64,000 bases of DNA from Mesostigma viride (lineage: Eukaryota; Streptophyta; Mesostigmatophyceae; Mesostigmatales; Mesostigmataceae). Positions 567 through 62,769 of this stretch are shown piece after piece. Within the stretch, counting starts at the first letter, position 1. Each line of letters opens with the position of its first letter. The notes beneath the pieces are model-generated. The model worked only from the letters and a program-made list of their open reading frames with translations, was not told the origin of the DNA and ran no database searches. The stretch is taken from positions 1,783,211-1,847,210 of the forward strand of contig RPFO01000106.1 in the NCBI GenBank assembly GCA_009746045.1. Reading direction: 5' to 3'. Position numbers and translations under genes: made by a program.

Positions 567-3500
567 CTTCATTGATGCAGAGCGCCTTGCGAGACGCCAG
601 TGCGACCATCTGAACGTCCGCGTCACGGAAGGGCGTGCGGTTGACCTCGTTGACAAACTGGGACAGCTGCGAGTGCGTGCGGCTGCTGAAAAAGATCTGG
701 CACGTGTCACGTGATTAAAGTAGCAAAAATAAATTAGTTAGATAAAGTAAAGTACTTATAAAGAAAAAGTCAAAATTACCCTCAGATGAGCAATGCACAC
801 ATGCAGAAAAACTCGGGCAGGAATGAGAAGATGGGAAAAGCGTGCAAGTTGAGGCTAGCTGCTAGCAAAGCGTCAGTCCGTGACCATGGGTGCGGTATAG
901 TAGACTTCGCTGGGGGGCGGTGTAGTAGACCTTGCAAACCTTAACATTCGAGGATGGGAACCAACAGCGAGACGCGTGTCACAAAACGGGGCGTACACAG
1001 GTGAGCCGCAGCACGGAGGCATGTGCCTATCAGCAGGGGTAGTTCAGGCCACTGGATAGATATACTTCTGAAGTATGCATAATGCTCGGTATACATAGCT
1101 CAGGCCACTGGACATATATATACACCGCTGCTGGGTTTAGTTCAGGCCACTGGATAGACACAACGCAGCAGACGGAGCGCACCTCGAGTAGCAATGATGT
1201 TCTGCATGCGAGCGTTCACGATGCGGCACCGACAAGCAAAACCGGGCAGTTACTTGATCCATCCAACACGTTTACTGGGGAGAAAAAGGAAATAGTTGCC
1301 ACAATAGTTGCCACAATAGTTGCCACAATAGTTGCCACAGTTGCCAAGTCCATCGAGGTCTATTCCTCAATGAACAAGGGAAATTACTTAGCCCATTAGT
1401 TGCCTGTTGCCACAAAGATGTCGTTGACAAGGGTGAGAGAGGTGAGCCAGCAGTTAAACATACCTTCACAGCTGTGGCGTCCGTGCCCAGGTCAGTGCCA
1501 CTGTCGTAGCCATCGCTGTCGGATGAGACCGCGCCGTCGGCATGTGCCAGCCGTTTGAGGGGGGCGCGGGCAGCTGCTTGCGGTGGGGCACCGGCATACC
1601 ATGCAGGGAGGTTCAGAAACATCCCATAATAAGTCAAAGAAAGCCCCATTGCGCATCAGTGCAAGTAGTATTCAAAGCCAAGGCATGGCACATGCCAGAT
1701 GGCCTTGCGGCCCGGGATCCAAATCTTTCGAAAGCGGCCCACCTGGCCCACCCCGTTCACTGTAGCTTGAAGCAAATTTGCAGGAGCGCCAAAAAAGGGA
1801 GGAGAGGATTGAAAGTCTCATTGGGATGTTTAGGGCCGGCTTGCAAGCCTATGAGAAACCGAAACGCTTCCATCTTAAACGTGAAGGCAGATATACGATG
1901 CCGAGCTTTTTACAAAACCATGAGACCAACCCCTCCAGACATCGGGCAGGTCAGCTGATTTCTAGGCCAAGGACAAACGGCCTGCACAAGTTACTACTTG
2001 AATTGCTGACCATGTTACAAACGACCTGCAGAAGTGGTTCCCTTGACTATTGCTAACCACATTCCAAGTTACAAACACAAATATACTGCACAGGAGGTTA
2101 CCTTGGGTGTCATCCCATTCCCCCAGCAACAGCTCGGAATCTTCGTCTTTTCCCAGGGTGGAGCCTGCACCCTCCAAGGAGGCCCTCCTGGCCGCACTTG
2201 CCGATGGAGCACCAGGGTCAGTCCCGGCCGGGCCCTGCCACATACCGGATCGGAGCCAAGACAAGTGCTGTACTTTAGCAGCCCTTGTGTAGTGTGGTCA
2301 TCCGCGGCATATTCTCCGGAAGACCTTTCCTTGAACCCACATTTTCTGGGAAATAATCTTGTTTCCTAGTAGCCTTATACTACCAATGATTTGCTGGACA
2401 TGAAGAAGGGGTTACCAGAGCAGTGTACGGGATGTAACACTCGGCTAAGGAGAAGGGGTTACCAGAGAAGTGTATGGTATATAACACTCGGCTAAGGAGA
2501 TGGCGTTACCAGAGCAGCGTATGGGATATAACACTCGGCTAAGCGGTCCAGTGCTGCCTAGAATACAGCGCTGCCATATGTATACAAGCTCCGGCCATCT
2601 GAAATTGAAAAAGAAGAAATCCATTCATAGTTATCATTAATAGGATATAAATGCAGACACCAATAAAACTAATGACCGCATAAGGAAGCTGGCCGATTAA
2701 GGCAATATGCGCCTCTCCACCATAGGTCCGTACAATGCAACATCACGGTGGTGGTAACTCCACATTTTGAGAACATCAACCATGTGACCATGTCACCATA
2801 TTTTTCAAGCAAGCCAATGCCTTGCACGTTCTCTGGGGATCCGAGGCTGCAAAGACAAAACACAAGATCGTTCAATGGCATCGGCATTGGCCATCGTTCA
2901 ATGGCATTGGACCTCTCACGCATGACAGCATGGTCTAGAAAAAGAAAAGCTTGTCTCCTGTGCTTGCCATTTGCATCGAGAATTCGTGTAGTAAGTATCC
3001 ACCATCTCCCCACACCCCCTTCTGTCCCCAAAGCAGAAACTTTAGCACGCTCATGCAGTAGCTCTAGATTAAGGTACGACAAACCAACCGGATCGCTTAC
3101 AAAAAGTGAGGCGGCGCCGCTGGCCGCAACTCCCCTGCCGCCCCGTGCATTGGCCCTTGCTTTGAATGTTTCCACCTCTCGGCGCGCTAGCTCACGGTTT
3201 TTCTGCCGCAGCGTTCGGACATGCTCCTTATGCTTGCGCTCGCGGTCCACCTCGTATTCCAGCACCCACGCGGGCTCTGGGGGGGGGAGGGTAATAGGTA
3301 TGTACAAGGGGATGGGGGGGGGGAGCATGTGGTTCACTCGGCAGCGCCAATGGCAAACAACGTGGGTCGCTTGAGATATTATTCAGCACCTTGTTCATGT
3401 CAGCCAGGCGGCGGTATACAGTTATACTAACGATTAGTGGTAATCAGTTATTCATGTGCGACGTATACGAGTACTAGTGAATCTTATAAGATTCACTAGT

Positions 3501-7148: not shown

Positions 7149-10100
7149 TTACCAGAACTCAAGCTGTCGGTTTTCCATGCCCTTGATGTTGCGTTTGTGT
7201 TCATCAAACATGCGTTGGAGCTCCTGTTTTCATACAGCCATGGACAAGCAATAGCATGCAGCAAGTGCATCACATGTAGAAATTCCGAGGACACATGCAT
7301 GAGAAAACCACGCCATGCGCAATTGCAAACAACCCAACGCACCAGGCACATGAGTAGAGAGGCTACAGCAAAGCAGCCAACTTCGCACGAGCACATAGTA
7401 CCTTCACCTGAAAGCATGCGAGACCATCAGACAGGCTGGCAGTAACAAGGCTACTCACACAGGGGAAAAGCAGGGCAGGTTGCTGACTGGCAAATTATCC
7501 CACAGGAATCAGTGCAGCGACAGGCAGTAGACTACCAACAAAGGAAACAATTGGTTTGCGTGTGCATGCGACCGTGAACACTCAAACCCGTCAAGGGGTG
7601 TTCAAAGTGGATTTCTTGAAGTGCCATGACTACCTTTCAACCCATCATTTTGACCCATCCACTGCGTGTGCCACCCTATGACACGTGCGGCACCGCTCAC
7701 GTCATCAGCGCATAAAAGTTGTGCCCCCTGATTGAAAGTACCGAGCACCTTGTCGCCACTGGCATTATATTAAATATTCTACGCCTTCGATAGCATGAGT
7801 GGCATGGTGAGGCCTACCTAGTCAGCCATTTTGATGGGGTGCCGCCGGTGCATAACAGGCCTGCGACCGCACATTCAATTCCTATAACCGGAATACTGCT
7901 GGATATCTGTTCCCGCCTAACGTGCATGGCCATTGCGTGCCTGAAAATATTCACAGTAAAACACAGTGTCGCATACCATCAAGTAGCATGGTATTGGTCC
8001 ACCATCCACTCGCACCAGATGACCGACGTAATGCTGCCTACCTTGACACAACTCTGCCTACCTTCACATAGTTGGCGTGGTACTGGCCCATCCACGCACC
8101 CCATGACCGACATAACTCTGCCCACCTTGATGTAGCTGGCATGGTATTGGTCCACCTGCGCCTGCGTCGGCTCCGCGATCTTGGGCAGCACAAACGGCTT
8201 GCCCACCACGGTATGCAGCTCCAGGTTGGTGCGCGGCAGCAGCGGGCAGAACCAGGCGCCAAACGCCAGCACGCCCGGTATTGAGTGTCGGCCTAGCCAC
8301 AGGCGGAAACTCCAACCTCCCTGCAAGTTGGCCATGCAGCAAGAAGATGAAAGATCCAAATGAAGTTACCATCTTGGGAAAGGGGGCAAGAGGGGGCAAG
8401 GGGGCAAGGGGGGGCAAGGGGGGGCAAGGGGGGCCAAGGGGGAAAGGGGGGGAAAGGGGGGGAAAGGGGGGAAAGGCGGGGGAAGGGGGGGAAGGGGGCG
8501 AAAGGGGGGGAAAGGCGGGGGAAGGGGGGGAAGGGGGGAAAGGGGGGGGAAAGGGGGGAAGGGGGGGCAAGGGGGGCAAGGGGGGCAAGGGGGGCAAGGG
8601 GGGGCAAGGGGGGGCAAGGGGGGGCAAGGGGGGCAAGGGGGGCCGAGGGGGGCAAGGGGGGCAAGGGGGGGAAAGGCGGGGAAGGGGGGGAAGCGGGGGC
8701 AAGGGGGGGAAAGGCGGGGTAAGGGGGGGAAGGGGGGGCAAGGGGGGAAAGGGGGGGAAGGGGGGCAAGGGGGGCAAGGGGGGCAAGGGGGGCAAGGGGG
8801 GCAAGGGGGGCAAGGGGGCAAGGGGGGGCAAGGGGGGCAAGGGGGGCAAGGGGGGCAAGGGGGGCAAGGGGGGCAAGGGGGGCAAGGGGGGGCAAGGGGG
8901 GCAAGGGGGGGCAAGGGGGGCAAGGGGGCAAGGGGGGCAAGGGGGGAAAGGGGGGAAAGGGGGGGAAAGGGGGGAAAGGGGGGAAAGGGGGGAAAGGGGG
9001 GAAAGGGGGGGAAAGGGGGCGAAAGGGGCGAAAGGGGCGAAAGGGGGGAAAGGGGGGAAAGGGGGGAAAGGGGGGGAAAGGGGGGGAAAGGGGGGAACGG
9101 GGGGAAGGGGGGGAAAGGGGAAAGGAGGGGGAAAGGGGGGAAGGGGGGAAAGGGGGGGAAGGGGGGAAAGGGGGGGGAAAGGGGGCAAGGGGGCAAGGGG
9201 GGGCAAGGGGGGCAAGGGGGGGCGAGGGGCGAGGGGGGGCAAGGGGGGGCGAGGGGGGGCAAGGGGGGGGCGAGGGGGGCGAGGGGGGGAAGGGGGGGGC
9301 GAGAAGGGGGGGGCGAGGGGGGCGAGGGGGAGGGGGGGGGAAGGGGGAGGGGGGGAGGGGGGGAAGGGGGGGGAAGGGGGGGGAAGGGGGAAGGGGGGGA
9401 AGGGGGAAGGGGGGCAAGGGGGGAAGGGGGGGCAAGGGGGAAGGGGAAGGGGGAAAGGGGGGGAAGGGGGGGCAAGGGGGGCAAGGGGGGGCAAGGGGGC
9501 AAGGGGGGGCAAGGGGGGCAAGGGGGGCAAGGGGGGCAAGGGGGGCAAGGGGGGCAAGGGGGGGCAAGGGGGCAAGGGGGCAAGGGGGGGCAAGGGGGCA
9601 AGGGGGGCAAGGGGGGCAAGGGGGGGCAAGGGGGGCAAGGGGGGCAAGGGGGGCAAAGGGGGGCAAAGGGGGGCAAAGGGGGGAAAGGGGGGCAAGGGGG
9701 GGCAAGGGGGGAAAGGGGGGGAAAGGGGGGGAAAGGGGGGAAAGGGGGGAAAGGGGGGGAAAGGGGGGAAAGGGGGGGAAAGGGGGGGAAAGGGGGGGAA
9801 AGGGGGGAAAGGGGGGAAAGGGGGGGAAAGGGGGGGAAAGGGGGAAAGGGGGGAAAGGGGGGAAGGGGGGAAAGGGGGGAAAGGGGGGGAAAGGGGGGGA
9901 AAGGGGGGAAAGGGGGGAAAGGGGGGGAAAGGGGGGGAAAGGGGGGGAAAGGGGGGAAAGGGGGGGAAAGGGGGGGAAAGGGGGGAAAGGGGGGGAAAGG
10001 GGGAAAGGGGGCAAGGGGGGGCAAGGGGGAAAGGGGGGGAAAGGGGGGCAAGGGGGGGCAAGGGGGGGAAAGGGGGGGAAAGGGGGGGAAAGGGGGGCAA

Positions 10101-13100
10101 GGGGGGAAAGGGGGCAAGGGGGGGCAAGGGGGGGCAAGGGGGAAAGGGGGGGAAAGGGGGGAAAGGGGGGCAAGGGGGGAAAGGGGGGAAAGGGGGGAAA
10201 GGGGGGAAAGGGGGGAAAGGGGGGGAAAGGGGGGAAAGGGGGGGAAAGGGGGGAAAGGGGGGAAAGGGGGGAAAGGGGGGGCAAGGGGGGGCAAGGGGGG
10301 AAAGGGGGGGCAAGGGGGGAAAGGGGGGCAAGGGGGGGAAAGGGGGGCAAGGGGGCAAGGGGGAAAGGGGGGGAAAGGGGGGGAAAGGGGGGGAAAGGGG
10401 GGAAAGGGGGGGAAAGGGGGGAAAGGGGGGAAAGGGGGGAAAGGGGGGGAAAGGGGGGGAAAGGGGGGAAAGGGGGGCAAGGGGGGAAAGGGGGGAAAGG
10501 GGGGAAAGGGGGAAAGGGGGGCAAGGGGGGAAAGGGGGGGAAAGGGGGGGAAAGGGGGGGAAAGGGGGGGAAAGGGGGGAAAGGGGGGAAAGGGGGGAAA
10601 GGGGGGAAAGGGGGGAAAGGGGGGAAAGGGGGGAAAGGGGGGAAAGGGGGGAAAGGGGGGAAAGGGGGGAAAGGGGGGAAAGGGGGGAAAGGGGGGAAAG
10701 GGGGGAAAGGGGGGAAAGGGGGAAAGGCGGGGAAAGGGGGGAAAGGGGGGACGGGGGGAAGGGGGGAAAGGGGGGAAAGGGGGGGGAAAGGGGGGGAAGG
10801 GGGGGAAAGGGGGGGAAAGGGGGGGAAAGCGGAGAAAGGGGGGCCAAGGGGGTGTGGGAAGGGGGGAGGCTCAGAAAAAAATATACAAGTTATATGATCC
10901 ACTATAGTTACAGACACATGCAAATACACACACAACCAAGGGGACAAACGGAACATAGATAGACGGATACACTCACTATACCTTCATTTCCACCAACGCA
11001 AACCAATTAAGAACACGCTAGCGCAGAGGCAGGCTTGACGGGACACCCATATGGTGGGGATTGGTACGCAAGAACTTGCTTACGTGGTACGGATCACCGC
11101 AATGTCCAGCTTGAGCTGGTTGTCAGGTTGATATTATGCCCACTATCTTATAGTAATGGGTTGTGGCAGGGATCCTCGCAACGTCAAGCTTGTGCTAATG
11201 CTATCTCTCGACATGCACGCTCACCTGCACGTTGTAGTACAGGTCAGACTCGCCAAACGTGTACACGGGCACCAGCGTGGCGCCCTCCCGCAGACCGATT
11301 TTCACAAAACCCTTTCGATTCTTGAGGAAGAGGCGCTCCTTACGGATTTCCGTGACAGACGCCTCTTCAAAACCGCCTGCTCCCCGATACGTGTTTCAAA
11401 TGACACGTGTTTTGAAAACATGGCATTCAAGGTTTCAAAATCAATTTTGTCCATGGTAGAGGAAAGATAGAAAGTGGGCTGAGAGTGGGCTGAGAAGTGC
11501 GCCGCATGGAAAACACGATATCCTGTGCGGGATGAATTCATGTTACGTTTTCCACCGGCCTGGCACACAATCATCAGTCATGATGTTCTCGGTAACGCAA
11601 ATGGAATGCAGTTTTTTGAGAATATGCGAAGGTGCCGGCCGACTCCCTGACAAATCTTACACGGGTGAGATTGTATGTGTGGGTGCATGTGCACGCACGC
11701 GCGTGCGTGGTCGGGTGGGTATAAGGGGGTGAGGGAGGGGGTGGCATGAAGCAAACCGCCTACGCGATTTCCGAGAACATCTTCCTGGAACTCACAGGAA
11801 ACATATAAACACACTGTCTGAAGATTCTTCTGGACGCAACGCTCGGTTACTGACAAAATTTGCAAACCAATCCCTGTCTCCTGCACCTACGTATATGACA
11901 TCAAATTCTCAAATGCAGCCAACGCGCTCAGCTATGCCAAGCCAGCCAATTCCCCCACATATGTGTTGAGTGGCGGATGGAAGTGCGGGCAAACTATTCT
12001 AGAGACAGAGTATACTCGTACGACGACATTATGTGTACCATCGTTTTTTCTTCGCCGAGTATACTTTATTGTCCATGGGCACATGCGCGCAGCATGCTAC
12101 TAATGCCTATCGTGCAAGTAGTGGGGGGGACGTAGCACGAGTCAAAGCGCATTATATAGTGGCGCGACAGCCGCCCCAATCAACTGCAAATCATTCAAAT
12201 AGATTTGACTGCATGTGATGTCAAGTAAATATCATCCCATAACCATCATTGACACATGGCACAAAGGCAGGTGTCCTTGCCTTTGTCAGATCAGTCAGAC
12301 ATTAAAGCACCACCAGTTTACAACATCTGTTGCGCGTCCTGACCTGGCAAAATCGCCATCACCTCCCCCGCTTTAAGGCGCCGCACAAAACTGCCTCTGC
12401 TGGCAGATCCGCCGCAGGTGATCTGGCACAACCGGGATGGGGGGGGGGGGCAAACAGCAGATCACAGCGATGCCATACACATGCGTAGTTAAACAGATAC
12501 TCATAATTATTGCTCATACTGGCACTTGGAGTGTTCCATGCTGCAGGGCCGTCCACAAGACATCCAAAAAATGTAATAAGTATAATAATAATAATAATAT
12601 TAATAACCAACGGAAAAAAAGATGGGCATTGCATATCGTATTATGGGATAAATGTAAGAAAACCACACATTGGCATGCAAAACCGTTGAAGAATAAATGA
12701 ATGCATACAGCTAGGGCACTAAAACATGGCAACCTCCTCCTGGCCTTAAAACATGGCAACCTCCTCCAGGAACTTTCTTAAAATCAAACCTTCTAATACA
12801 TAAATCCAAAACATTAATAAGGCCAGAAAATAAGACCACGTAAGTGTGAACATCAGCGGAAACAGCCATGTGAAAATAGGAACTTGTCCATTCTCGTTGG
12901 TCTGTGCCAGTGCCCAGTTGCTGCCTTGTGCTCAAACCAGCATAGCTTACAAGAGAAACACAGCTTGCACGAAACCCAGCCAGCTCACACTCTTCAACAC
13001 AGTCCGCACTTTTGGATGTGTATTCACAATATGTATGTATATATACTACTATATGTATGTATATATTACTATATGTATGTATATAGTAATATACATACAG

Positions 13101-15940: not shown

Positions 15941-18900
15941 ATGGACCACTTACCCATGCTGAAGTCCATTCCGTGCTGGCATGGGCCAGCCGTGTGTGGC
16001 ACGTGGGTGGTGTGCGCGTCGGAAGGCTCTACACTGCGAGTGTTTTTCGGTGACGTGCTTCAGGTATGCGTTGACATACGGTACCCGTCTCTACGTAGTA
16101 CTCGTCTCTACACGATAGGCGGTTTGCCTAACATTTCGCCACAGCTGATCAGTCAATTTCCGTGGGTTAAGGCTTTGTTGCACAATGCGGCACGTTTACC
16201 AACGCTAGCAGAGGACCGCTCGCACCCCCACGCCTCTGACAGAGAGGGCACCCTGCAGGCATATGACGAGAATGAAATGGGATTGGCCCCGGCCCGCAGC
16301 AATGCAATCAACACCAGCACATCGCATCCTTTGCAGCCACCTCTACTAAACCTTCTGGATAGATGTTGTGGCTGTTGAGTTCAGGAACCAGGTTGGCTTT
16401 TCCCCTTTGCTAGCCCCTGTTGCCCGTCACCCCGACGCTTGCTTCCATCGTGTGCCACTCGCTGCCGTGCTTCTCCTTAGGCAATCAGCACGCATCCATC
16501 TCCAACCTGGGCCACGTGATATTGCTACCCAACGGCCCCTAACTCGCCTGGAAATGCCACCTGGCGCTGTTTGCATGCTTGGCCCGTGCAGGCCACGTAC
16601 TTTTTCCCGTTTCAAGTCATCAGTGTGGACGCGGTCATCTCCCACCACCCTGTCTCGCTGCCCCAATGCTCTCCAGCCTCAACCTCACGCTCATCTGGCA
16701 GGAACTTGGCAGGGGGGCCAACAGGTATCTCTGAACAAACACGTAGACTGCGGTCCATTTCCATCCCACCTTGCAAGCCGGAGCCTGTGAGGCAGCCTGC
16801 TGCGATTCCCTTTGGCGTGCCCGCCACGAATCGGAATGGCGGCTTGGTTTGTCCGAAAAGCTGGTTTGCGGGATCGCTTTTTCTGCTCGCTTTTAGCCTG
16901 ATGCTATAGCCCCCCCCCCCCCCCCCCCCCCTTGTGTCCCCGTGGCTCATTCCACTGCTGTACCATGCCTGTAACAAGGTGGCAAGCAGGCAAGGGGCTC
17001 GTGTCGTGAGGGGAGCTTAAGGCTACCTAGCTCCTGGCGGCCTTGCGTTCCCTGTTGTGCTCCCTTAAGGCCACCTAGCTCCTGGCGGCCTTGCGTTCCC
17101 TGTTGTGCTCCCTTACGGCCACCTAGCTCCTGGCGGCCTTGCGTTCCCTGTTGTGCTCCCTTACGGCCACCTAGCTCCTGGCGGCCTTGCGTTCCCTGTT
17201 GTGCTCCCTTACGGCCACCTAGCTCCTGGCGGCCTTGCGTTCCCTGTTGTGCTCCCTTACGGCCACCTAGCTCCTGGCGGCCTTGCGTTCCCTGTTGTGC
17301 TCCCTTACGGCCACCTAGCTCCTGGCGGCCTTGCGTTCCCTGTTGTGCTCCCTTACGGCCACCTAGCTCCTGGCGGCCTTGCGTTCCCTGTTGTGCTCCC
17401 TTACGGCCACCTAGCTCCTGGCGGCCTTGCGTTCCCTGTTGTGCTCCCTTACGGCCACCTAGCTCCTGGCGGCCTTGCGTTCCCTGTTGTGCTCCCTTAC
17501 GGCCACCTAGCTCCTGGCGGCCTTGCGTTCCCTGTTGTGCTCCCTTACGGCCACCTAGCTCCTGGCGGCCTTGCGTTCCCTGTTGTGCTCCCTTACGGCC
17601 ACCTAGCTCCTGGCGGCCTTGCGTTCCCTGTTGTGCTCCCTTACGGCCACCTAGCTCCTGGCGGCCTTGCGTTCCCTGTTGTGCTCCCTTACGGCCACCT
17701 AGCTCCTGGCGGCCTTGCGTTCCCTGTTGTGCTCCCTTACGGCCACCTAGCTCCTGGCGGCCTTGCGTTCCCTGTTGTGCTCCCTTACGGCCACCTAGCT
17801 CCTGGCGGCCTTGCGTTCCCTGTTGTGCTCCCTTACGGCCACCTAGCTCCTGGCGGCCTTGCGTTCCCTGTTGTGCTCCCTTACGGCCACCTAGCTCCTG
17901 GCGGCCTTGCGTTCCCTGTTGTGCTCCCTTACGGCCACCTAGCTCCTGGCGGCCTTGCGTTCCCTGTTGTGCTCCCTTGAGGCCACCTAGCTCCTGGCGG
18001 CCTTGCGTTCCCTGTTGTGCTCCCTTACGGCCACCTAGCTCCTGGCGGCCTTGCGTTCCCTGTTGTGCTCCCTTACGGCCACCTAGCTCCTGGCGGCCTT
18101 GCGTTCCCTGTTGTGCTCCCTTACGGCCACCTAGCTCCTGGCGGCCTTGCGTTCCCTGTTGTGCTCCCTTACGGCCACCTAGCTCCTGGCGGCCTTGCGT
18201 TCCCTGTTGTGCTCCCTTACGGCCACCTAGCTCCTGGCGGCCTTGCGTTCCCTGTTGTGCTCCCTTACGGCCACCTAGCTCCTGGCGGCCTTGCGTTCCC
18301 TGTTGTGCTCCTTTTTTTTGGGGGGGGGGCGCTTCGCAAGGCTTGATTGTTTCCTAGTTTTCCAGTTTCCTAGTTTTCCAGTGTGCGCTCCCTTTGTATG
18401 GACTCAGGAGGAAGCGGGCAGCTGCATGCATTCATCCATGCACACGGATGGGTTGTCGGTCTAGTGACATCTTATACTAGTGCTGTGGCTGGTTGGCTGG
18501 ACTTCATAGGGAGCGATGGCATGGTTTACTGTGGCTTCGATTGGGATTCTGGGGTGCACCCACAGTGAGGAGAATGCTCACATGAGCAACGGTAGGGGTG
18601 CCAATAGGCGATAAGGCTTGTTCTCCCAGGCACTAAGTGTGTTTTCAATGCACAAAGTCAGGTCACCAGCCGCAGCCAGCCCGCCAGCCCGCCAGCTACC
18701 ATAAGAATAGGTTGTGTTGCAAGTCGGGCAGCCTGGAAATCTTCTGCCGCATCCTTTTCACATCTCAGGCACGAGTCTTGTATCAATGCCACAGCCTTTG
18801 CCCTCTTCAAGAAAATTCTGAGAGGTCATGTCCGCACGGATGTCTCTGATCCGTGCGGACACGGATTTCTTCCCTGGATTCGTTGTGGGCCTCGTGTCGT

Positions 18901-37712: not shown

Positions 37713-39190
37713 GCGTCCATGCCTAGCCTATCACGGAAAGTCTGGAGTAGTCGGATGGCGACCCGGTCGTGCGCGGCCTGGTGCACGCCATGTGAGGATC
37801 GACAAAACTAACGCCCGGGATGTGCGGGCTTGCATGCCAGCGATCGAGTCTACTGATCCAATGTCGGTCTACCTTATCTGTGCGCGAACCAGGTGCCCGG
37901 CTAGGCCCAGGCGCCTACTACATATATACGATGTGGGAAACGTATGGCAAATAAATCAGCGTGCAAATCCTTACATATTGCTAATGTGCAAACCATGCAT
38001 GCAAAGGGGCCGGATATTAAATGCCTTGCGCAGCATTCTTGAGTGAAACTGCCGTCGAGTCGTTTAATCTCCAGCTCCTGCCGCGCCAGCGTTCACGTCT
38101 AGGCGCGCCGTAGGTCAGGATAGTACTAGACTACAAGGACTAGTCATGGAATGACGACCTTGATGAACATGCAAGCCGGCGCGCTTGACAATCCTGGAGG
38201 GTAGCTAGGGCGGGGTTGCTCCACCAGCGGCAGTGGTCATGGATCGAGTTGCGCGCCCATGCCATGCCTATCCCCGGGTGGTCATGTCATCCTCACAGTC
38301 GGGAAGCCAAAGTTGCCTAGCAACTTGAAGCGGTCTGAAGTAGGGTAATTTACCTCGGTGTCGTCTAAGAGTCGGAGTGGGGGCGGGTGCCCGACCAGAC
38401 CGAGGGCCATGCAGGGTCTCCGTACGTTTGTGGGCTGCATGATTTCTAGACGGCCAACAGCATGAGCCTCGCAAGTGCCAGGCAGTCCAGCCAAAGTTGG
38501 GCAGACTTCGGCTTCTCAATGAGCGTGATGTCGTCGGCATTGATCAATGAGGTAAGCTGGTAAATTCTGCTGGTTGGTCTGTCCGGCCCCCGGCTAGTTC
38601 CCCAAGCTCGTTCGTGATCACTAGACCAGCTAGGTGCGCGGCCAGCCATGCAGCAGAGCAAAGCGGGCAGGTGCCTAGCTGGCGCATAACATAATCCACT
38701 ACAATAATGGACAGGTACAACCTGACGGGACGGAACCCTGCCATACGCCAGTCTGCAGTGGACATGGTGGGGTAATTAGAGCCGTGTTGATTGAGCGCCC
38801 ACCGTGAGGTGGTCGATCGACCCCTCGTACATCGTGCGGATGACAGTAATCATGCAGGGGAGTGGGGACGCGAGCGCGAGCAAGGATAGCCCAGATAGAG
38901 CGGCCCAGAGGACAGAGTCAGAAGCGTTGATGAAGTCGAAGAAGATCAGGACACCAGATTGCAGTCCTGCATGAGCACGATTTCCTCGCAGAGACGGCGC
39001 GCACTGCGAAGATGGCCATGAGTGAGGGTGTTGCGCCCAGGACGAAAGCCCATTTGACGCTCCACACTAAGTGACGGTCGCGAGCAGAACGAAGACGGTT
39101 AAGCATTATGCGCTTGAACAACTTGCATGAGTGTGGTGCTCTGGATGCACACTACTCGGTAGTTGCATGGCGGGGTCGTCAGGGGAATGC
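37713..39190 (-). mobile_element. Second, 5'-truncated LINE copy, inverted relative to the first
   Basis: The minus strand matches the first LINE from about its position 36100 to 37395 (landmarks: YVMRQ, AITNELGE-like, LWLDCLAL, RRLGLA-equivalent) with many indels. The catalytic YADD is altered to NADD. The 3' part near 37,740 is cut where the 3' tail of the forward LINE ends, which suggests one element inserted into the other. Confidence 0.82.
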
Positions 39191-40183: not shown

Positions 40184-43100
40184 TCATTGGTGGGAATATA
40201 GGCTGGGGAGACGGGCGCTGACGGGCCCGGACCCCCCTGGGGCGCCCCAGTTCATCTGCTTCGAGACAGGGGCGGGAACAACCGCCCTTGGCATCGGCAC
40301 TGCAGCAGGGAACGGAGCCGACGGTGCCTGGCCCATCCCCGCCCCATGCTCAAACGCCTCCCGGCCCCCATCCATCACCATCGGAGTCGCCATACATGTA
40401 TCTTCAGACCTGGACCGCCCCCGTGCACTGCCCAAGGGGGCCATGGCCGGAGGGTACGGTACGTCCACGCTGCCCATCCGGCGCAGGCCGGGGCTCGGGG
40501 GTGACAGGGGCCCTGTGGGGGAGAGCGGGCCAGGGGGAGAGAAGGCGCCAGGTGGGGACAGGGTCCCACCGGAGCTCACAGCGCCAGAGCCGATGCGTTT
40601 CAGCTTGGTCGGGAACGCGCCACCTGTCATGAGCGGGTTCCCTTGCGGCCGGGAGGGGTCCACAAGGCGCGCCGGTTGGGGCCGCGAGTCGGTCAAGCTC
40701 CCCTGACAAAAATAGACCATGGACACGCGGCGAGGAGAGAGCGCGTTGGGTGAGAATGAGTCAGTGGCGGCCACCAGCAGAAGACGCTGCCGTGCTTCAA
40801 TGGCACTTAAGAGTATTTCAAGCAGGCATGTATGTACATGGTTTGCCTCTAATGTATTCACATCGCAAGAGACCACAATTAGTTAAGACCACATCCAAAT
40901 AGTATAATATTATGATACCAACGAGGCACCCACGGGCTTCCCTCACGAGACACACAAGTACGAGTATAAGCGCGTAAGTACAAGCATAGAACTGCTACAC
41001 GTGAAATAATGGAAGCAACACCTACGCTCACCTCGCATGACACAGCATACGACTAATGCCAACACACGTGTAATAATGAAAGCAATTGATAAGCTCACCC
41101 CGCATGACACAGCATACGACTAATACCAACACACGTGTAATTATGAAAGCAATACCTAAGCTCACCTCGCATGACACAGCATACGACGAATACCAATACA
41201 CGTGTAATAATGAAAGCAATTTATAAGCTCACCTCGCGAGACATGCCGCTCCGACCTGGTCCCCCCGCCGACCCCGACGGTACGGATCCCATCTCCCCGT
41301 GCTCCCTCAGCGGTGACGGCGTCCTCAGCGCCGCCGCCATCGCCACCCCGCTCTGCTGGTGCTGGTATACAGGCGACAGCATCGGCGAGTGCGAGCGGTA
41401 GCTCAGGTGGCTCGGGGACGACCCGGCGCCAGGTGGCGACGCCGGGTTGGATCCGGTCGAGCGCGCGGTGCTGGGGCATGTCCCTGGGAGGCCCTGGTGG
41501 TTGGGCACGTGCAGCGGCGCCAGCTCGTTGATCTCGCGTATCCGAGCCTCCTTGCGGTGGATCTTGATGTTGGCCCCTTTGAGCATGTCCTCGTACGCCG
41601 CCACCTTCCTGGGGGGTACAAGGCCGAGGGCGAAGAATGGAGCAAACGAGCAGCACAGAATCGCAGTGTCAAGATGACAGGGGTATGATACACCGCCACT
41701 GTCGTGGGGGTGTGGGGGGGTATGTAAGCAATTCGAGTACAATGGAAAGGGAAGCGAGGAGCGTGGAGGTTAAGTTGGAGGGGGTAGAAAGGAGCAAAAC
41801 AAGGTGTGCAGGATTGCAGTGTCGGGACCGGGGGGCCAAAGTACACCGTCACTTTCCCTGGGGCCGTTGACACAGGATCTGGGCATGAAAGTTGGATGGG
41901 GAAGCGAGGAGCGAAACGACAGGGATTGCCAGGTCAGGGTCCGCAGGGTTTGGTATAATACATGGGACCCATGGCAGCAAGCGAGGCCAGAGCGCAAGCG
42001 GTAAGAGCTGCAGGTACAGAGGGAGGTCGAGGAATTGTGGGGTGAGAGCAATCCCCCCGTTACAGAGAGCAGCCATAAGAAGCCAGGGTTAAAAGATGGA
42101 CGCAGAAGAGCTGGGGCGACTGCACACACTCATCGTCAGTACAATGTAATGTCTAGTCACCCGTAGTCCGCCAGGCAAGCGAGACAGCTGTCTCGTAGAT
42201 GCCCCTCATGAAGGCCAACCCTGATGCAAGCTTGCCAACCCTGATGCAAGCTTGCCAACCCTGATGCAAGCTTGTTAACCCAAACATTCCCTTGGCCTCT
42301 CCACTTAATCTCCGCCAATGCCCCCCTCACCGTCCCATCTCCACTCATCCCCTTCTCCTCACTATTCCATCGGCACTACTCCCCTTCTCCTCACCGTCCC
42401 ATCTGCACTCATCCCCTCCTCATCACCGTGCCATCTGCACTAACCCCCTTATCCTCACCGCTCGATCTGCAGCAACCCCCATCTCCTCACACTTCCATCT
42501 GCACTACCCCCTCCTCCTCACCGTGCCATCTGCTCCAACCCCCATCTCCTCACCGCTCCATCTGCACTACCCCCCTTCTCCTCACACTGCCATCTGCACT
42601 GACCCACTCCTCAAACTGCCATCGTCACCTCCCGTACTCCAACCCCCCCTTATTTTCTCACCGTTCCATGTCCGCACACTTGTCGCTGTACATGCGGTTC
42701 ACTTCTGCCAAACGCGCGTTCGACTCGTCGGCCAGCCGCAGCTTCTGGGTGGCGTTCGCCAGCTCGCTGCGCAGCCCCTCGCGCTCCTCCACCACCACCA
42801 GGTTGTCGGCCTCAGCCGCATGCAGCCGCTGGGCCAGCTCGTTGGCATGATTCTGCCAGTCGCACGCCTGCTGGCGAATGACCTCCACTTCTTGCAACCT
42901 GGGGTAAGATGTGTGTGTGTAGGAGGGGGGATGGCGGGGGGGGAGGGAAGTGCCGGGGGGGAAAGGAAGAGGAGGAAAAGGGGGAGAAACAAAAGTTTTA
43001 AGATCTTGTATGTCATCACTCTGTGCTTTAAGGTGCTAGATGACACAGCAAGGAACCTCCTTGAGAAGCTAAGGTTGTATGTCTGCGCTAGTGATAACAG

Positions 43101-46991: not shown

Positions 46992-49900
46992 ATGGCTAGC
47001 ATTCTATCCCGCGGACCTCATGGTATTCGTTTGGGAAGAAATCACAGTGCCAGCATGGTTTTCCTGAGATATCTCTCCACGGTCCCCCAGACCCAGCAAG
47101 CGTCTGCTTCTTCTTCCGAGCCCTGGCATGGTCGGGCTGCAGGGATTCTTCTCGCTGCTGCTGTCGCAGGGGGCCTTACTGCTGCTAGCTTCATTGACCG
47201 GGAGTCCCGGCCCATTACGGCAGCTCCATCTTTCGCCAGTAGCGCACTGTCTCACTGCGATGCCGCGAAACCTGCCCCAGGTGCGCCTCTAATCTCCTCA
47301 ACTACACCGTACTCCCCTTTAATGTAGTCAACGAGAAAGCCTGTAGTGCCCTGAACATCATTCCGTTTGTCGCCTTCTACGAGGAACTCTATTCAACAGT
47401 AAACCTTATGACAGTGTACTTAGTCCTGCTTAATACGACGGAGCATGGTATAGTCGATCAGCTATGCACGCGCCCTCGTCCCACGGGATGCGCTGCCCAC
47501 CTCCTTGCATGGAGTACTGGCTACCATGTCTGTGGCGCCATTTTCCTGGAATTAGCGCACTGGGGCATGCACCAGGATGTTGGATGCCCAAATGATGAGC
47601 GCACTGGCTCGTGGCACAGCAAACAAGGGCATAGGGCATTGACCAGGTTGGCTGGTTGGCTCATCCTCTTTTCTGGCCAGACATCTTGCCCGACCACTGC
47701 TATTTTGTCCGCCCACAGCCAGTTGGTAAGCCCACAATTAGCTTGCGACTTTCAGCTTGCATGCTTGTAGTCCTCTGCGTGGAGTGAGTAAAATGGTCGC
47801 TGCATTGTTGGTAGGGTGGATTACCAGCGGGCTGATTGGGGGCTGGGGGATTGGGTTGGGCTAATGCCCCACTTCGTTGCTTCATATCCGGCTTTGGTAT
47901 CAAACACGACGCCTTCTGCCCCATATCCAACTTTGCTGTCCAACATGACGGCTTCTGTCCCCAGTCAGGCTTCTAGCTAGTTGTTTGCCATTTGTTAACT
48001 CTGGCACTTGTGGGTCTACTTTCCCTGTCCCCCTACCCCTAGCTAGTGCAAGCTAGTGCAAGCTAGCGCAAGCTAGTGCATGCTAGTCAAAGGGCGAGCT
48101 CGCTCCTTCTCGTTGTGTATAGGGGTGGAAGGTTCCCTTATTGGTACCCACGTGACGCAGTCTATGTGTTAATGAATAGATCCCCTTCCTATTGAATTAA
48201 TTAATCCCCCTACTATTGAACTAATTAGCCCCCTACTATGTAATTACTTAATCCCCCTACTATTGAATCAATTAGCCCCCCTATTATTTAATTAATTAAT
48301 CGCCCTACTATGTAATTAATTAGTTCCCCTACTATTTAATTACTTAATCCCCCTACCCCTCTGCCCCCGACAAATCTCGCCAGGCCCATGCCAGGCTGCC
48401 GCTCCCGACAAGTCCTATCCTGAAATAACCCGCGCCCAGGTGGCGGAGCACCGCACCCTGGACAGCATGTGGGTCACGTTTGGGGACGGCGTGTACGACG
48501 TGACGGCGTTCGTGGCGGGGCACCCGGGGGGGAAGGACCGCATCATGCTGGCAGCGGGGGGCGCGGTGGAGCCCTTTTGGTCCATGTACCGCGTGCACAA
48601 CACACAAGGTAATTTTATCGGGCAGCCTCGCACACGTTTTTTACTCTTTTGCTTGTCGATGTACCGCATGCACAACACACAAGGTAATTTTACTGGTCAA
48701 CCTCCCTCAGGTCTTTGACTCTTTTTCTGGTCCATGTACTGTGTGCCCCACGGGCAAGGTGCGTAGTCTTGGAGGGCATGCTAGCGACGGTGAACTAATT
48801 AGCCACAGCCAAGCCTTTTGTTGGGACATAATGTCCCTAAAGTTGCGCCAATGGTCTGGGTGCTGCAGAGGACGGCGTTGCACAGCAGCCGTTCACATAG
48901 TGGTCCATGGCTGTAAAATAATTTCCTTCTAAGTTGTGGAAGGTGTTGTCGCTTCACCATGAAATGAAGGCTGTAGTACTCTCCCAATATATTAGGGTAA
49001 TGTCTAATACACTAAGGTAATTTGTCATTTAAATTAGTTTGGCCGCCTTACACTTGCACGGTGCCTGCCCCCTCCTCCCCTCTTGGCCCCCTTCCTCCTC
49101 CTCCCCCCCCTTCCCCTCCCCCTTCCCTTCCCCTACCCCCCTTCCCCTTCCCCCTTCCCCTCCTCCCCCCCCTTTCCCCCCCCTTTCGCCCCCCTTTCGC
49201 CCCCTTTCGCCCCCTTTCGCCCCCTTTCGCCCCCTTACCCCCTTACTCCCCCTTTCCCCCCCTTACCCCCCTTACCCCCTTACCCCCTTACCCCCTTACC
49301 CCCCCTTACCCCCCTTACCCCCTTACCCCCTTACCCCCCTTACCCCCCCTTACCCCCCTTACCCCCCTTACCCCCTTACCCCCTTACCCCCCTTACCCCC
49401 CTTACCCCCCTTACCCCCCTTACACCCCCTTACACCCCCTTACACCCCTTACACCCCCTTACACCCCTTACCCCCCTTACACCCCTTACCCCCCTTACCC
49501 CCCTTACCTCCCCTTCTCCTCCCTCCCACCCCCTCTTCCTAACACTTGCATCAGCCACGCGGGACTTGCTGGAGACGTACCGCATCGGGACTCTTCCCGA
49601 GGGGGAGCGGGGCACGCCCATGCCGGACCTCGGGTCAGACATGTGGGCCAACCAGCCAGATCGGTCAGGTACGTGCTCACGCGCGTTTGTGGTTTCTTAC
49701 TGTTTGCTGCTACAAGCTGCTATCTAAATACTTGCTATTGAAATTGCGGATCAATCGGGTATGTACTCAACTGCATTCATGTGGTACGTGGTCACGCACG
49801 CTTGTGTTTTCCCGTTCTTTGCCGCTAAAGTCAGTGATTCAAAAAATTGCTATTTAAATTGCCGATGGCCCTTGTTTCCCCCCTTGTTTTCCATTGTTTA

Positions 49901-50302: not shown

Positions 50303-50362
<60 letters not shown>

Positions 50363-53300: not shown

Positions 53301-55806
53301 AAGCATCCTCTCGTCCCCCCCTTCCGTCCACGTCCCCCATTCACCATCCTACTGCCCTGTCTTTTTGTCCCTCTACACTCCTCACCCCAGCCCACCCCAC
53401 CGCCTCCCCTCTGTCTCTCCCTTTCTCCTCCTTCCCCTCCTTTTCTGGCTTTAATATTTACATACCCACATTCTTGACTGCCGGTTGCTTCTTTGTCATT
53501 TCTCTTTGCTGCTGTCCCAGTATGCACTGGCAACTGGATTCCCACATGCAGCCAAATAATCGCTGGCATCCTTACACTGTTTCATCCATGGCTAATCCTC
53601 TTCCCCCCCTCCCGCCCCCTCCCTTGGCACCCCCCAGCCTTGACCGGGACATGGAACATGCATACGGCGCCAGCATACCCATCGAGACGGCTACCAACCC
53701 GGCCGGTGATGTCCTGCTTGCGTTTGAGATGAACGGGGAGCCGCTGCCGATCGACCACGGCTTCCCCCTGCGGGTGATTGTGCCGGGGACGGTGGCGGCG
53801 CGCAGCGTCAAGTGGCTGCACAAGATCGTGGTGTCCAAAGTGAGCTGAAAGATTTATCTTTTCCAAAGTTGGCTGCATAAGATTCTGGTGTCCAAAGTAA
53901 GCCTGAAGATCATAAATACTAGTATATTACAAATATAATATAGATATTACAACGGTTAGCTGACCAAGATCATGACGTTAAAATTAGGTAAAGTGCGCTA
54001 TTTCCTATAAGGTGTCCAAGGTCGTGCTTTCCACGCTAAGATAAGGGAGTTTGATGTCTTAGTATTATATTACGCTGATCGAGTGCTATTTCCTATAAGG
54101 TGTCCAAGGTCGTGCTTTCCACGCTAAGATAAGGGAGTTTGATTTCTTAGTATTATATTACGCTGATCGAGTCCATGTTGTCCCAAGTAAGACCAGAGAG
54201 TTTCTTGAACCACTCTCTGGAGTTATCAATCTTTATACCCTATGATATGTTGGCAAACGTCGTGGTGCCCAAAGTAAGACACCACGTCACCACGTAAGAC
54301 GACGAGTCATGTTACACATTCATACAACACTGTGCCCGGATGTCCAAACTAGGAAATGAAAAACCGATCTTTTTTTAGCTCTACGACAAGGTGTCCAAGG
54401 TTGTATTTTTCAAAGTGCGCAAGATTTATGGGCGCCTGCTGCCTTTCCCCTCCGTTTCCTTGCGCAGGACGAGAGCGACTCCCACTGGCAGCAGGCGGAC
54501 TACAAGGGCTTCTGCCCAAGCTCGGACTGGGACAAGCTGGACTTCTCCAAGGCCCCTGCGATCCAGGAGATCCCCGTTCAGTCCGCCATCCTGTCGCCCA
54601 AGGAAGGGGACGCCAAGCCTGTCCGACCTGGTACGTAGGAATTAATGAAGCAAGCAAGAGCATCCGCGGTTCTTTAAACCTTTAATTTCTAGGGAGGTGG
54701 GGGACGAGCCATACAGCTAATTAGTCACGTGCTCCTTGGGGACTCGCGGAGCACAGTAGTACAAGGTTACATCTGGGAGATGAAGCTCGATGTGACTATC
54801 AAGCATGTTAAATAGAATAAATCCTCTGCATGCATGTCCCTTCTCTAGAGTTTGCCTATCCCTCTGTCTACATGGCTCATAAGAAACGTGCTGAAGTACC
54901 AATGTCTGTCGGGTGTGGGTTGAACAGGGCTACGCAAAGTCATCTGCATGTTCATAAACACAGCCGTTGTTTAAGATAACGTTTGATGTTAGGCATGTGG
55001 CGTGACTTTATGAACATCTGGCAAGCAGTGCCATTGGTAGAGCCTGCGAGCTGCCTGGTTTCTGGTAGAGCTCACCCTAGCGTGGCACCCGCTGCTATCT
55101 CCAGGGCCGTGGTGTGCTGCTGTATAGGTAACCAGGTGCAGCTTCTGCCTACCTTTTCCTGCTTCAAGGGGTCATGTTACTTTTGGCGCATGCTAGGAGG
55201 TAGCAAGGCTACCATGCTGCCGTTTGCCACGGTGCCAGGGTTTGATGCCTGATTACACTTAGGTAGCCATTCAAATTGCACTTCCAACATCTGCATGATG
55301 CGTGTTTAAGAAGCAGAGAGCATGAGGCAACTTGCTCATGAACTGCATGGTATCAACTCCCCGTCTCTCTGCATCCTGGCGACGCCCCTTTGCTGCGTAT
55401 CTTTTTCCCTTCTCCAGGGGATATGCTCCCTGTCGCTGGGTATGCGCTCTCTGGTGGTGGGCGGGAGATCATCCGCGTGGATGTCTCCGTCGACGGGGGG
55501 GAGACGTGGAGGGAGGCCACCCTGGAAGAGACCAGCCAGGCGCCGGGGAGGCACTGGGCTCTGCGGCGCTGGCACGCAAATCTAACCGTCCCTGCCATAA
55601 AATCAGAGAAGTCAGGCAAAGACGGGCAGAGCGGTACCGTGCGGCGCAAGCTGCAGCTTGTGTGCAAAGCGGTGGACCGTTCGTACAACGTCCAGCCCGA
55701 GCGGTTCGAGCCGATCTATAACGTGCGGGGTGTTCTGTCCAATGCGTGGCATCGGGTGGATATTCCAGTTGCTGAGACGGCCCACCACCCTGCTGCTAAG
55801 AAGTGA
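46992..55806 (+). CDS. SUOX: Sulfite oxidase, animal-type with cytochrome b5 domain, complete (nine exons)
   Basis: Oxidises sulfite to sulfate with a molybdopterin centre, passing electrons via heme b5 to cytochrome c. Exons: 46992-47280, 48384-48608, 49555-49668, 50092-50271, 51526-51596, 52691-52884, 53638-53839, 54468-54630, 55418-55806; all phases agree (608 residues). Residues 1-~45 are Arg/Ser-rich and suit a mitochondrial presequence, followed by the hydrophobic [17 protein letters not shown], as in intermembrane-space proteins. The cytochrome b5 domain (~105-175) has HPGG His143 and His168 (MYRVHN), the 25-residue heme-ligand spacing of vertebrate SUOX. Mo domain: [38 protein letters not shown] with the Mo-ligand Cys300, [22 protein letters not shown]. 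The dimerisation domain is in exon 9 (VSVDGGETW). Land-plant SUOX lacks the heme domain, so nitrate reductase or plant-type SUOX is excluded; there is no FAD domain. Confidence 0.94.
48150..48190 (+). mobile_element. Solo LINE 3' terminus in SUOX intron 1
   Basis: CCCACGTGACGCAGTCTATGTGTTAAT repeats the terminus of the LINE at 37.7 kb. It is followed by the TTAATTAA-rich tandem array. Confidence 0.5.
48180..48360. repeat. ~24-bp ATTAATTAATCCCCCTACTATTGAA array in SUOX intron 1
   Basis: About seven degenerate units, possibly grown from a LINE tail. It ends about 25 bp before the exon 2 acceptor at 48383. Confidence 0.85.
48581..48765 (+). repeat. 75-bp tandem copies of the SUOX exon 2 / intron 2 junction
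   Basis: TCCATGTACCGCGTGCACAA plus CACACAAG/GTAATTTTA begins at 48581 (real donor at 48608/48609). It recurs at 48656 with an intact GTAATTTTA donor, and at 48731 in a diverged form ending GGGCAAG/GTGCGT. The period is exactly 75 bp. The copies encode versions of SMYRVHNTQ that contain the second heme ligand His. Confidence 0.92.
49075..49540. repeat. C-rich array (CCCCCTTA)n ending at the SUOX exon 3 acceptor
   Basis: Runs of C4-6 separated by TTA, TTT(CG) or TTACA, becoming more regular rightwards. It ends within about 20 bp of the acceptor at 49554. The transcript strand is pyrimidine-rich. Confidence 0.93.
49658..49866 (+). repeat. Tandem duplication of the SUOX exon 3 / intron 3 junction
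   Basis: GATCGGTCAG/GTACGTGCTCA at 49659 recurs as GATCAATCGG/GTATGTACTCA at 49749. Both are followed by related intron sequence (CACGC, TTGTG, TTGC(C/T)GCTA, TTGCTATT, AAATTGC). Confidence 0.8.
50302..50361. repeat. (AAT)n microsatellite, ~20 copies
   Basis: Uninterrupted AAT/ATA trinucleotides, 30 bp downstream of the SUOX exon 4 donor (50271/50272). Confidence 0.96.
51026..51148. repeat. Purine-rich (GAGAGAGGGGA)n array in SUOX intron 4
   Basis: Short units of GAGAGAGGGGA and GGGAGGGGA over about 120 bp. Here the purine strand is the transcript strand. Confidence 0.9.
52240..52640. repeat. 55-bp tandem repeat, ~7 copies, upstream of SUOX exon 6
   Basis: The unit contains ACCATGCACCCTCCGACCCA and GATCTGGGCATGCACCATCGG with few variants. 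It ends about 50-70 bp before the exon 6 acceptor at 52690. Confidence 0.94.
52872..53095 (+). repeat. Degenerate short repeats derived from the SUOX exon 6 donor
   Basis: The donor context TTTGAGG/GGTGGGTCACAGG is echoed by TTTGAAGGGTAGGG and several GGGTAGATTTGG-type words over 200 bp. Similarity is limited. Confidence 0.4.
53813..54275 (+). repeat. Tandem and dispersed copies of the SUOX exon 7 / intron 7 junction
   Basis: TGGCTGCACAAGATCGTGGTG plus TCCAAA/GTGAGCTGAA at 53813 recurs 57 bp later as TGGCTGCATAAGATTCTGGTG plus TCCAAAGTAAGCCTGAA. Weaker echoes occur at about 53955, twice within an 88-bp direct repeat (53997 and 54085), and at about 54250 (GTCGTGGTGCCCAAAGTAAGA). Confidence 0.85.
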
Positions 55807-55839
55807 GATCAATGGTTAGCTCTTCCACTTTGCCTCATT

Positions 55840-58614: not shown

Positions 58615-58685
58615 GGATGGGTGGAGTGGAAGGAGCCGCGTAATCGAACTAACCTAACTCTAATCTAGCTAGTCTAGAAAAGTCC

Positions 58686-60601: not shown

Positions 60602-60756
60602 TCAGGGCCACCAGTGCCGCCACATTCTGCCGCTCCACGTGCTCGTGCCCACCCACAGGTACTGTGCCAGCTGGCACAGCGGGTTATTGGACACTTGGTG
60701 CCCTGCCTGTTTGAGACTGCCCCAGCTCCCATCCTCCCCACTGACCGCCATGCTGC

Positions 60757-60800
<44 letters not shown>

Positions 60801-62769
60801 CTGCCACTGCCAGTGCAGCCATGATCCTTGCCATCATGAGCACGATCATAGGCTACCCCCTCGAAAAGGCTGCCGCCGTCACCCGACACGCCATGACCTC
60901 CACCGGACGTGCCACCACCAACAACACCACCAACACCACCACGGGATGTGCCGCAAACACCACCCGACATGCCACCATCACGGCCAGACAGGTCATCATC
61001 AGCCATGCCACCATCCGACTCGCCCGATGTGCTGTCGCTGCTGCCGCTGAGGCCACCGTCGTAACCCCATCCGGCGCCATCACTGGCCGCACCACCCGAC
61101 ACCCCGCTGTCACTGGCCAGAGGAGAAGCCGGCCTTAGGGCCCCCCTCGACATCAGCAGAGGCTTGTGATCCACGTGGAGCGTGGGCGGTGGCGGCGGGC
61201 GGTAGGCAATGTCGCCGTTGGTCGCCATGTGGACGGCCCGTACGCCCGCAGGAGCGTGGGGCACCGTCACTTGCGCGCGGTGAAACCGTCGCACCGCCTT
61301 GCCGGAGGAGGCTGCAGAATGGAAGGAAGGAATGTGACATGGAAGGGGGTTGGTTGAGAAGGGAATCCTGTTCTCATGTATGCATACTAGTATGGATGGG
61401 TTTAGCGGGCGGGCGGTGATGAACGGTGATGAGATCATCAGTTCAAGCAACGCAGAGAGGCATTCGGAAACATCGACAGTTAGACACAACATTGAGTGGG
61501 CATAAGAGTGCACCGCGGACACGGCTGCGGCGATGGACGGAAACTACACCCGACCACCTACCGTATCGACTGTGTTCTGTATCCTCTGTGAGTCTAGCTG
61601 TCGTCGACAGAATCACAGCAATGCAAGAGTATCGATCTGGGTGGTTGACATCTATAGCCATCGAAGGATCACGTGAATAGATCTGCAGGGTCCATGTTAC
61701 GTGAATTGAAAGGACCAGTACTGCACCCGCCATGTTTTGTGGACAGCCTGCCTGATGGCGCAGAATATACTACCATGCATCGCAGCGGGCAACACAAAGA
61801 GCACTACAGTAAGGAAAGCACTCATGTCTCAGTAAAAACTTCAACAATAAATGCACGATAAAGTTAAAACAATAAAGTAAAAACAATAAAGTTAAGAGGC
61901 CATGGGAAAAAATCCACGCACCGTACATGATAACATTTAAAAGGCATGATAATAACATTAAATGATCAATTTCATGTTGAAGTCATTTTAGAAATTATCA
62001 ACGCATGCTCAACAGGGCTTGTACAAGTCACTGCGTTGATTAACGATTAGACCACCGCGTCGTGCCGGTTTCAGTAGTAGCTACTAACAGCTACTAACAA
62101 CTACTACAACGAGCCGACCTGTCTACAACAGCCCATGTTGCCCAGTGCATGGCATGTGGGACATGCCACTAGGGACTCCTGAAGGCGCCTCGTCCCGCGG
62201 CACGAAGACCTAGAGCCCTGTGCCAGCGAATCTCAGGTAAGTACAGCACTGCATGCCCATCATGCATAGCATGCAAAACTTCAAGCCCAAGCCGGCCAGG
62301 AGTCTATAGTTCCACAAATTACACACCTCCCCGCATACACCATTTGTCGGACCCAATCGGCGCCCGCAGCACCACCGACGTGTTTTTTGTCACCATGTCG
62401 CAGCCCGTGCCCACAACAAAAATGAATGTGCTCAACCACCCCACCCTGCGATAACCCACCCTGAGCCTGCGGCTCCACGGACAACTGTGTCGCCTGTGAT
62501 CACGTAGCATCCCTTGCCCACCATTATAAAGTAAAACACCCAAAAGAGTCATGCCTTGTGGCACTCGAGCAACCCACCCTGCGCCTGCAACGCCACGGCG
62601 GTATCGCGCGTGACCATGTAGCAGCCCTTGCCCGGCTTGATCATCTGGAACAGCAACCACGACCCGCTCGCCGCGACCATGATGGAGTAAACGCGCCCCT
62701 TGCGCACGGGGTAGTCCAACAAGCCCCCTTTGTCATAGCTGTGGTTCACGTATGCCATCGCGCTGTGGA
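60602..62769 (-). CDS. Unrecognised gene, at least two exons, with poly-Asp tract (5' part missing)
   Basis: Exon 62578-62769 reads HSAMAYVNHSYDKGGLLDY, then VRKGRVYSIMVAASGSWLLF and KGCYMVTRDTAVALQAQ, ending CAGG/GTGGGT. The exon starting at 61311 (acceptor TTCTGCAG) continues in phase with SSGKAVRRFHRAQVTVPHA, then a Pro-rich loop, MATNGDIAYR and a long Ser/Gly/Asp-rich tail with 14 Asp encoded by (GAT)n at about 60757-60800, stop at 60602. The first exon looks like a compact beta-rich domain (short strands with Gly turns), but I do not recognise it. More 5' exons should lie right of 62769. The tail could be trimmed by a further intron. Confidence 0.5.
60757..60800. repeat. (ATC)n / (GAT)n trinucleotide repeat, 14 copies
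   Basis: Uninterrupted ATC on the plus strand. On the minus strand it is in frame and encodes poly-Asp within the unrecognised gene. Confidence 0.93.
62335..62660 (-). repeat. Three tandem diverged copies of an exon end with its donor
   Basis: On the minus strand KGCYMVTRDTAVALQAQ (~62585-62635, donor CAGG/GTGGGTTG) is followed by GKGCYVITGDTVVRGAAGS (donor CAGG/GTGGGTTA, ~62460-62515). A third copy reads TGCDMVTKNTSVVLRAP (~62345-62400), with its donor lost. Units are about 110-120 bp. Confidence 0.8.

Follow-up and report, generated by a model that had tools for sequence, protein, structure and literature searches.

Do the introns of Mesostigma viride (Streptophyta) tend to take up copies of their own 5′ splice sites, or do such copies merely reflect repetitive DNA? 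The question is raised by a 64,000-nucleotide stretch of one contig (RPFO01000106.1, positions 1,783,211 to 1,847,210; hereafter the window), for which the original prediction held that exon ends with their GT donors are reiterated in tandem within the introns of five unrelated genes. As the window suggested the idea and is dense in tandem repeats (70 Tandem Repeats Finder rows in 64 kb, spread throughout), chance overlap of repeats with donors is a serious null, and we therefore used a test set of 60 introns outside it. There, copies of the exon end are frequent at donors, far rarer at acceptors, and peak at the exon–intron junction. We put at roughly 0.5 the probability that introns lengthen by short tandem duplications of a break-repair type, whose origin or survival is favoured at 5′ splice junctions. 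The observation behind the prediction is thus partly confirmed, and its interpretation, that introns grow by local duplication at the junction, is partly supported.

Exon-end copies at donors, acceptors and intron interiors

The 60 test introns come from 23 loci encoding CCT/Cpn60 chaperonins and kinesins in the same 440 Mb assembly (2243 contigs). Homology and frame paired 44 of them and coding score the remaining 16; junctions were set by frame, model position, splice consensus or, in gaps, coding score, before repeat statistics were computed. The set draws on 57 of 58 CCT exon matches and on kinesin stretches covering 46 of 129 matches, five of these in the haplotype copy C2. We dropped C887 and C2 as haplotype duplicates, one CCT intron whose junction scored 1.7, gap-filling introns with a low score or small margin (8 of 12 solved exons were accepted, and five gaps stayed unsolved) and exon pairs lacking a consistent junction; kinesin introns entered under no score cut (lowest 2.7).

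Comparison of the last 30 exon bases with the first 400 intron bases (score of at least 13), and the mirror test at acceptors, gave exon-end copies at 20/60 donors and 6/60 acceptors (Fisher P = 0.003; discordant introns 19 versus 5), while the null from mismatched gene pairs was 0.6% for donors and 0.35% for acceptors. The contrast is found in CCT introns (6/20 versus 1/20), kinesin introns (9/24 versus 3/24) and introns placed by coding score (5/16 versus 2/16), in the homology-paired introns alone (15/44 versus 4/44) and at a threshold of 20 (8 versus 1). Bootstrapping over whole loci put the difference at 0.234 (95% interval 0.137–0.328), with copies at donors in 15 of the 23 loci and at acceptors in 6. 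A scan extended to 1500 bases found 57 exon-end copies (null 4.75) and 20 exon-start copies (null 5.25). Acceptors are thus not copy-free, though donors far exceed them. The copies are specific to their genes, as foreign exon ends match an intron in 0.6% of comparisons versus 33% for its own. This agrees with the earlier statement that no single mobile element is involved, and an introner or other mobile family was rejected on these figures.

Repeats are also plentiful away from the junctions, with 16.9% of 2292 interior 30-mers recurring nearby and at least one such 30-mer in 78% of 59 test introns. A common filter was therefore applied at all sites, in which the copy had to span the site at an offset of at least 25 and low complexity was excluded. 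It returned 26/60 donors, 7/60 acceptors and 277/2689 interior sites (10.3%). The corresponding values were 10/60, 1/60 and 5.9% at a score of 30, and 5/60, 0/60 and 5.6% at a score of 35, which short exon parts are hardly able to reach. Copy coverage is highest at the junction, reaching 0.405 over the ten final bases of the exon and 0.373 over the ten opening bases of the intron, against 0.145–0.194 at +30 to +200, 0.05 at 30–45 bases into the exon and 0.013 at −60 to −45; around acceptors it is 0.09–0.18 with no peak, and in the shuffled control 0.013. Arrays with a period of at least 15 start 11 times within the final 30 bases of the exon, a rate of 6.1 per kb compared with about 2 per kb beyond +100; the rate is also raised at +50 to +100 (4.0 per kb). 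In this sample, then, duplications were commoner at donors than in the rest of the intron, as the original prediction requires, with a reservation for the youngest copies that is given below. Simple repeats were excluded from these statistics by the low-complexity filters; one of them is a long GTGC run within about 30 bases of the donor in L037 (C777), the CCT intron after model position 108.

The size of the excess depends on how interior copies are counted. With age expressed as mismatches in 24 bases, counting every array copy gave 5/59 donors at one mismatch or fewer versus 5.6% of interior sites (P = 0.06, about 1.5-fold), rising to 16/59 versus 7.7% at five or fewer (3.5-fold). Since no copy of an array but the first can contain the donor, interior first copies were counted separately, and the comparison became 5/59 versus 0.6% (13.7-fold) and 16/59 versus 1.8% (14.9-fold). 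Across settings the first-copy ratio was 9–15, with a bootstrap 95% interval of 8.8–27.5 at five or fewer mismatches. First-copy acceptors numbered 0/58 at one mismatch or fewer and 4/58 at five or fewer, with same-direction interior values of 1.0% and 2.3%. The all-copy and first-copy counts bracket the true donor excess.

Donors of the window and anatomy of the copies

In the window, bases −80 to +12 of 16 donors were aligned to the following intron up to +400, and a score of at least 14 spanning the junction was called a copy; some of the 16 were chosen because the original prediction had flagged them. Solved sulfite oxidases served as the homologous reference for placing the SUOX exons; exon 2 of SUOX, as numbered in the original prediction, falls beyond the region with homology. 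The exon ends of the DGAT2, DDX11 and coiled-coil genes and at 62.6 kb were placed by open frame, coding score and donor consensus, without homology backing, and these three gene names are likewise labels of the original prediction rather than products of homology. The sites with copies are as follows.

48574..48758, plus strand: end of the SUOX cytochrome b5 exon; first intron base 48609, copy offset 75, score 35.5, exon part 35 bases
53810..53908, plus strand: end of the SUOX molybdopterin-domain exon; first intron base 53840, copy offset 58, score 27, exon part 30 bases
49659..49770, plus strand: SUOX exon end with a weak copy; first intron base 49669, offset 90, score 11, 10 exon bases only
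8049..8161, minus strand: exon end of the gene labelled DGAT2; first intron base 8125, copy offset 64, score 26, exon part 36 bases
42325..42678, minus strand: exon end of the coiled-coil gene; first intron base 42661, junction copy score 14, exon part 17 bases
40997..41243, minus strand: exon end of the coiled-coil gene; first intron base 41232, offset 67, score 16, exon part 11 bases
62452..62652, minus strand: unrecognised exon end at 62.6 kb, the exon lacking homology support; first intron base 62577, copy offset 118, score 36.5

Clear junction copies are thus present at 6 of the 16 donors (two in SUOX, two in the coiled-coil gene, one in DGAT2 and one at 62.6 kb). At 48609 a 75-bp tandem array holds about 2.3 copies of the exon end and GT donor, the third ending just past the donor. 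The donor at 42661 is followed by a 32-bp array (9.0 copies by Tandem Repeats Finder) with GTGAGG-like donors, and that at 41232 by a 67-bp array with four GTGAGC donors. Another plus-strand donor, 52896, has a weak copy (score 10; its exon 30-mer scores 13). No junction-spanning copy at a score of 14 was found at SUOX 50272, 51597 and 54631, DDX11 4068 and 1463, or coiled-coil 43647. Reiterated donors are real here and beyond the window, and the sites named earlier in the coiled-coil gene and at 62.6 kb were upheld; in SUOX two are clear and 49669 is weak. Two others were not supported: the donor of DDX11 exon 4 (2101, minus strand) scored 8, with no offset from 40 to 124 reaching 30/60 matches, and that of DGAT2 exon 5 (11224, minus strand) also scored only 8. 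By eye, the SUOX intron beginning at 53840 contains more decayed look-alikes further downstream.

Among the 26 junction copies in the test set, offsets have a median of 96.5 and a 10–90% range of 54–182, and the copies are head-to-tail duplicates of a local segment. Direct reading revealed clean arrays with units of 83–88 bp (C1502), 70 bp (C2189) and 48 and 96 bp (C1702). Unit length varies from site to site and each unit derives from its own gene's junction, as had been proposed. The exon part is 8–55 bases long in all 26 (45 or fewer in 23/26), whereas interior events reach further (45 or fewer in 91/277); such small exon parts would follow if a copy carrying the whole exon context cannot be tolerated. 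In 10/26, each of two tests showed the intron part to be duplicated too, with partly different membership.

Mismatches between exon and copy fall at codon positions 1, 2 and 3 in 14/156, 18/164 and 31/160 cases (9.0%, 11.0% and 19.4%), a pattern in which one copy is constrained and the other free, drifting like neutral intron sequence. GT is retained in 23/26 copies, and donor positions 0 to +5 match in 132/142 cells. Offsets are in frame in 10/26 copies (chance expectation one third) and an in-frame stop lies between the two donors in 12/26. With random frame and intervening stops there is no sign that copies serve as coding donors, and this role was rejected.

Origins of the donor excess

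Under the reading that we favour, staggered breaks or paired nicks would be filled in and rejoined to give tandem duplications, mostly of about 50–180 bp. These would happen all along introns, the initial ones being over-represented at the junction between exon and 5′ splice site. A duplication spanning the donor would keep the original exon and donor, leaving the protein unchanged while the spliceosome uses the upstream donor, as homology suggests it still does; the new copy of exon end plus GT would become ordinary intron sequence, drift and perhaps reiterate into arrays. A duplication spanning the acceptor would leave the old acceptor preceded by a new one that would be misused, and so would survive less often. 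If the upstream donor is preferred, exon parts would also tend to be small, as is the case. A splicing filter alone cannot raise donors above the unfiltered interior, and we therefore infer that either the events themselves or their survival is locally raised at donors; the cause of this, like the repair origin, is a proposal. The stronger statement, that duplication coupled to donors and directed by transcription or splicing lengthens introns from the 5′ end in this lineage, is offered tentatively. If true, exon ends turn into intron sequence, and intron length is a by-product of splice-site position.

Several observations weigh against this reading. In 13 of the 26 copies both tests failed to show duplication of the intron part, although in some of these it is too short or too old to judge. 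Four of the 13 (C1546a 7246, C777 6855, C1702 3335 and C1106k 768) combine junction identity of 85–92% with an intron part of at least 50 bases, an outcome not predicted by simple tandem duplication and subsequent neutral decay; the copies may be separated by filler, or spacers may turn over faster. The modest excess in the youngest class when all interior array copies count (1.5-fold, P = 0.06) qualifies the donor-versus-interior result, and a higher birth rate at donors depends on correcting for first copies and on a small number of young events (3 at zero mismatches, 5 at one or fewer). Cryptic donor-like GTs inside introns had copies in 2/39 cases versus 47/2332 for other GTs, a sample too small to judge. 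The sample as a whole is narrow, with one kind of genes from two families at 23 loci.

The excess may instead be chiefly mutational, with transcription or splicing steering breaks or nicks to the 5′ junction (for example through R-loops or the G-rich displaced strand) and the splicing filter being secondary. We regard this as possible but rather doubtful, and the start from RNA/DNA hybrids or nicks at donors that the original prediction suggested is conjectural. First-copy enrichment is already about 13-fold in the youngest classes (3/59 and 5/59 versus an expected 0.11 and 0.20), and the 5′ breakpoint is narrowly placed, 8–55 bases upstream of the donor, yet the young events are few and amount to only 1.5-fold in the all-copy comparison. 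Nor is there a link to donor type (e.g. GTGG 5/17, GTGA 8/23), to G content of the last 40 exon bases (0.319 and 0.319) or to intron length (P = 0.96). A sequence motif as the cause was discarded for want of a link to donor tetramer or G content. It is unlikely that duplication is uniform, with splicing filtering acceptors and exon interiors and donor copies merely staying visible longer because selection holds the exon copy. The codon-position pattern does imply that donor copies remain recognisable about twice as long, and the all-copy excess grows with age from 1.5-fold to 3.5-fold; however, the first-copy excess is 13-fold at every age, zero mismatches included, the positional profile peaks at the junction, and acceptors, whose exon is equally frozen, remain at 4/58.

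Selection that keeps the copies as auxiliary or decoy 5′ splice sites, by which U1 is recruited or splicing adjusted, would account for the retained GT and donor positions and for the 13 copies with a conserved junction and an uncopied spacer. We consider it improbable, as the exon parts drift at codon positions 1 and 2 too, with position 3 at about twice that level, the retention of GT is near the value given by 87% identity, and frame is random. Least credible of all is that minisatellites overlap donors by chance or that exon ends are misplaced. Tandem repeats are dense, 78% of 59 test introns repeat an interior 30-mer, and junctions rest on homology, frame and coding score, but the exon ends of all 60 introns were fixed before the repeat search and the donor–acceptor contrast lies within the same introns. 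Mismatched and shuffled controls were near 1%, on which chance overlap was rejected.

Related systems and further features of the assembly

Intron lengthening is usually credited to transposons and slippage, with splice sites disregarded. Introner elements, which are copies of one family, also produce genome-wide growth of intron sequence, whereas each copy here stems from its own gene's exon end. Stwintrons consist of an internal intron placed within the donor of an external one, with excision in two steps. Duplications from paired nicks occur in plants. Fill-in of broken ends is established as a general way in which small tandem duplications form (PMC8355091); their size and head-to-tail arrangement resemble those seen here. 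This mechanism is not known to favour 5′ splice sites. Excerpts of PMC7138796 describe Lipomyces stwintrons in which a 5′ donor within an existing intron was likewise duplicated, ascribed to fill-in of an asymmetric double-strand break, but those duplications are of 4–7 nt in one gene with nested introns, against tens to hundreds of bases including exon at about one third of donors here. The potato RdRp case, as excerpted from PMC4974935, is alike in that local tandem duplication over an exon–intron boundary gives intron sequence its splice signals; there a new intron arose and the acceptor boundary was crossed, whereas here it is the donor side of introns already present that is extended, repeatedly and in many genes. 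Parts of the Chlamydomonas comparative genomics (PMC8226300) and Limnomonas genome (PMC11228838) reports note long introns, and donor copies go unmentioned in those parts. The literature matches listed, from a search with most subscription journals outside it, included no account of genome-wide reiterated copies of exon end plus donor.

With about one third of sampled donors duplicated into their own intron, this genome offers a natural experiment on splice-site choice, namely why the upstream donor stays used. It bears equally on why donors and acceptors differ and on a possible influence of transcription or splicing on DNA breakage. For gene finders, the copies are a warning of chains of false donors.

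Comparison of near-identical loci gave a limited view of copy-number change. C1641 and C887 share a CCT gene that is about 98% identical between them, and are probably two haplotypes; one C1641 intron has 3.1 kb extra, and one of the two copies has a 43-bp tandem duplication, the single polymorphic duplication seen, which is intronic and not at a donor. A further stretch of C1641 had no match to C887. C622 and C2 are 99.95% identical across 4190 bases.

Elsewhere in the window, large tandem arrays lie at 17016–18311 (48-mer, 27 copies), 20082–21646 (56-mer, 28 copies) and 8376–10852 (degenerate 9-mer, 269 copies), and an uninterrupted CAG repeat, about 230 units long, closes the window at 63312–64000. 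A 685-codon open frame at 35096–37153 has a reverse transcriptase domain (RVT_1, E 3e-25), and short coding-like pieces on the minus strand (38506–38544 and 38797–38844) look by eye akin to the same kind of element. In the wider assembly, the intronless GroEL-like and tRNA-synthetase frames of C2011 (1.49 Mb) suggest a bacterial contig. Plastid contigs match Chlamydomonas RbcL at 93% identity, which marks the organism as a green alga, and besides intact rbcL copies plastid-like contigs contain decayed rbcL pieces with several stops and 36–66% identity (C996:11204-12615, C602:3435-4140 and C879).

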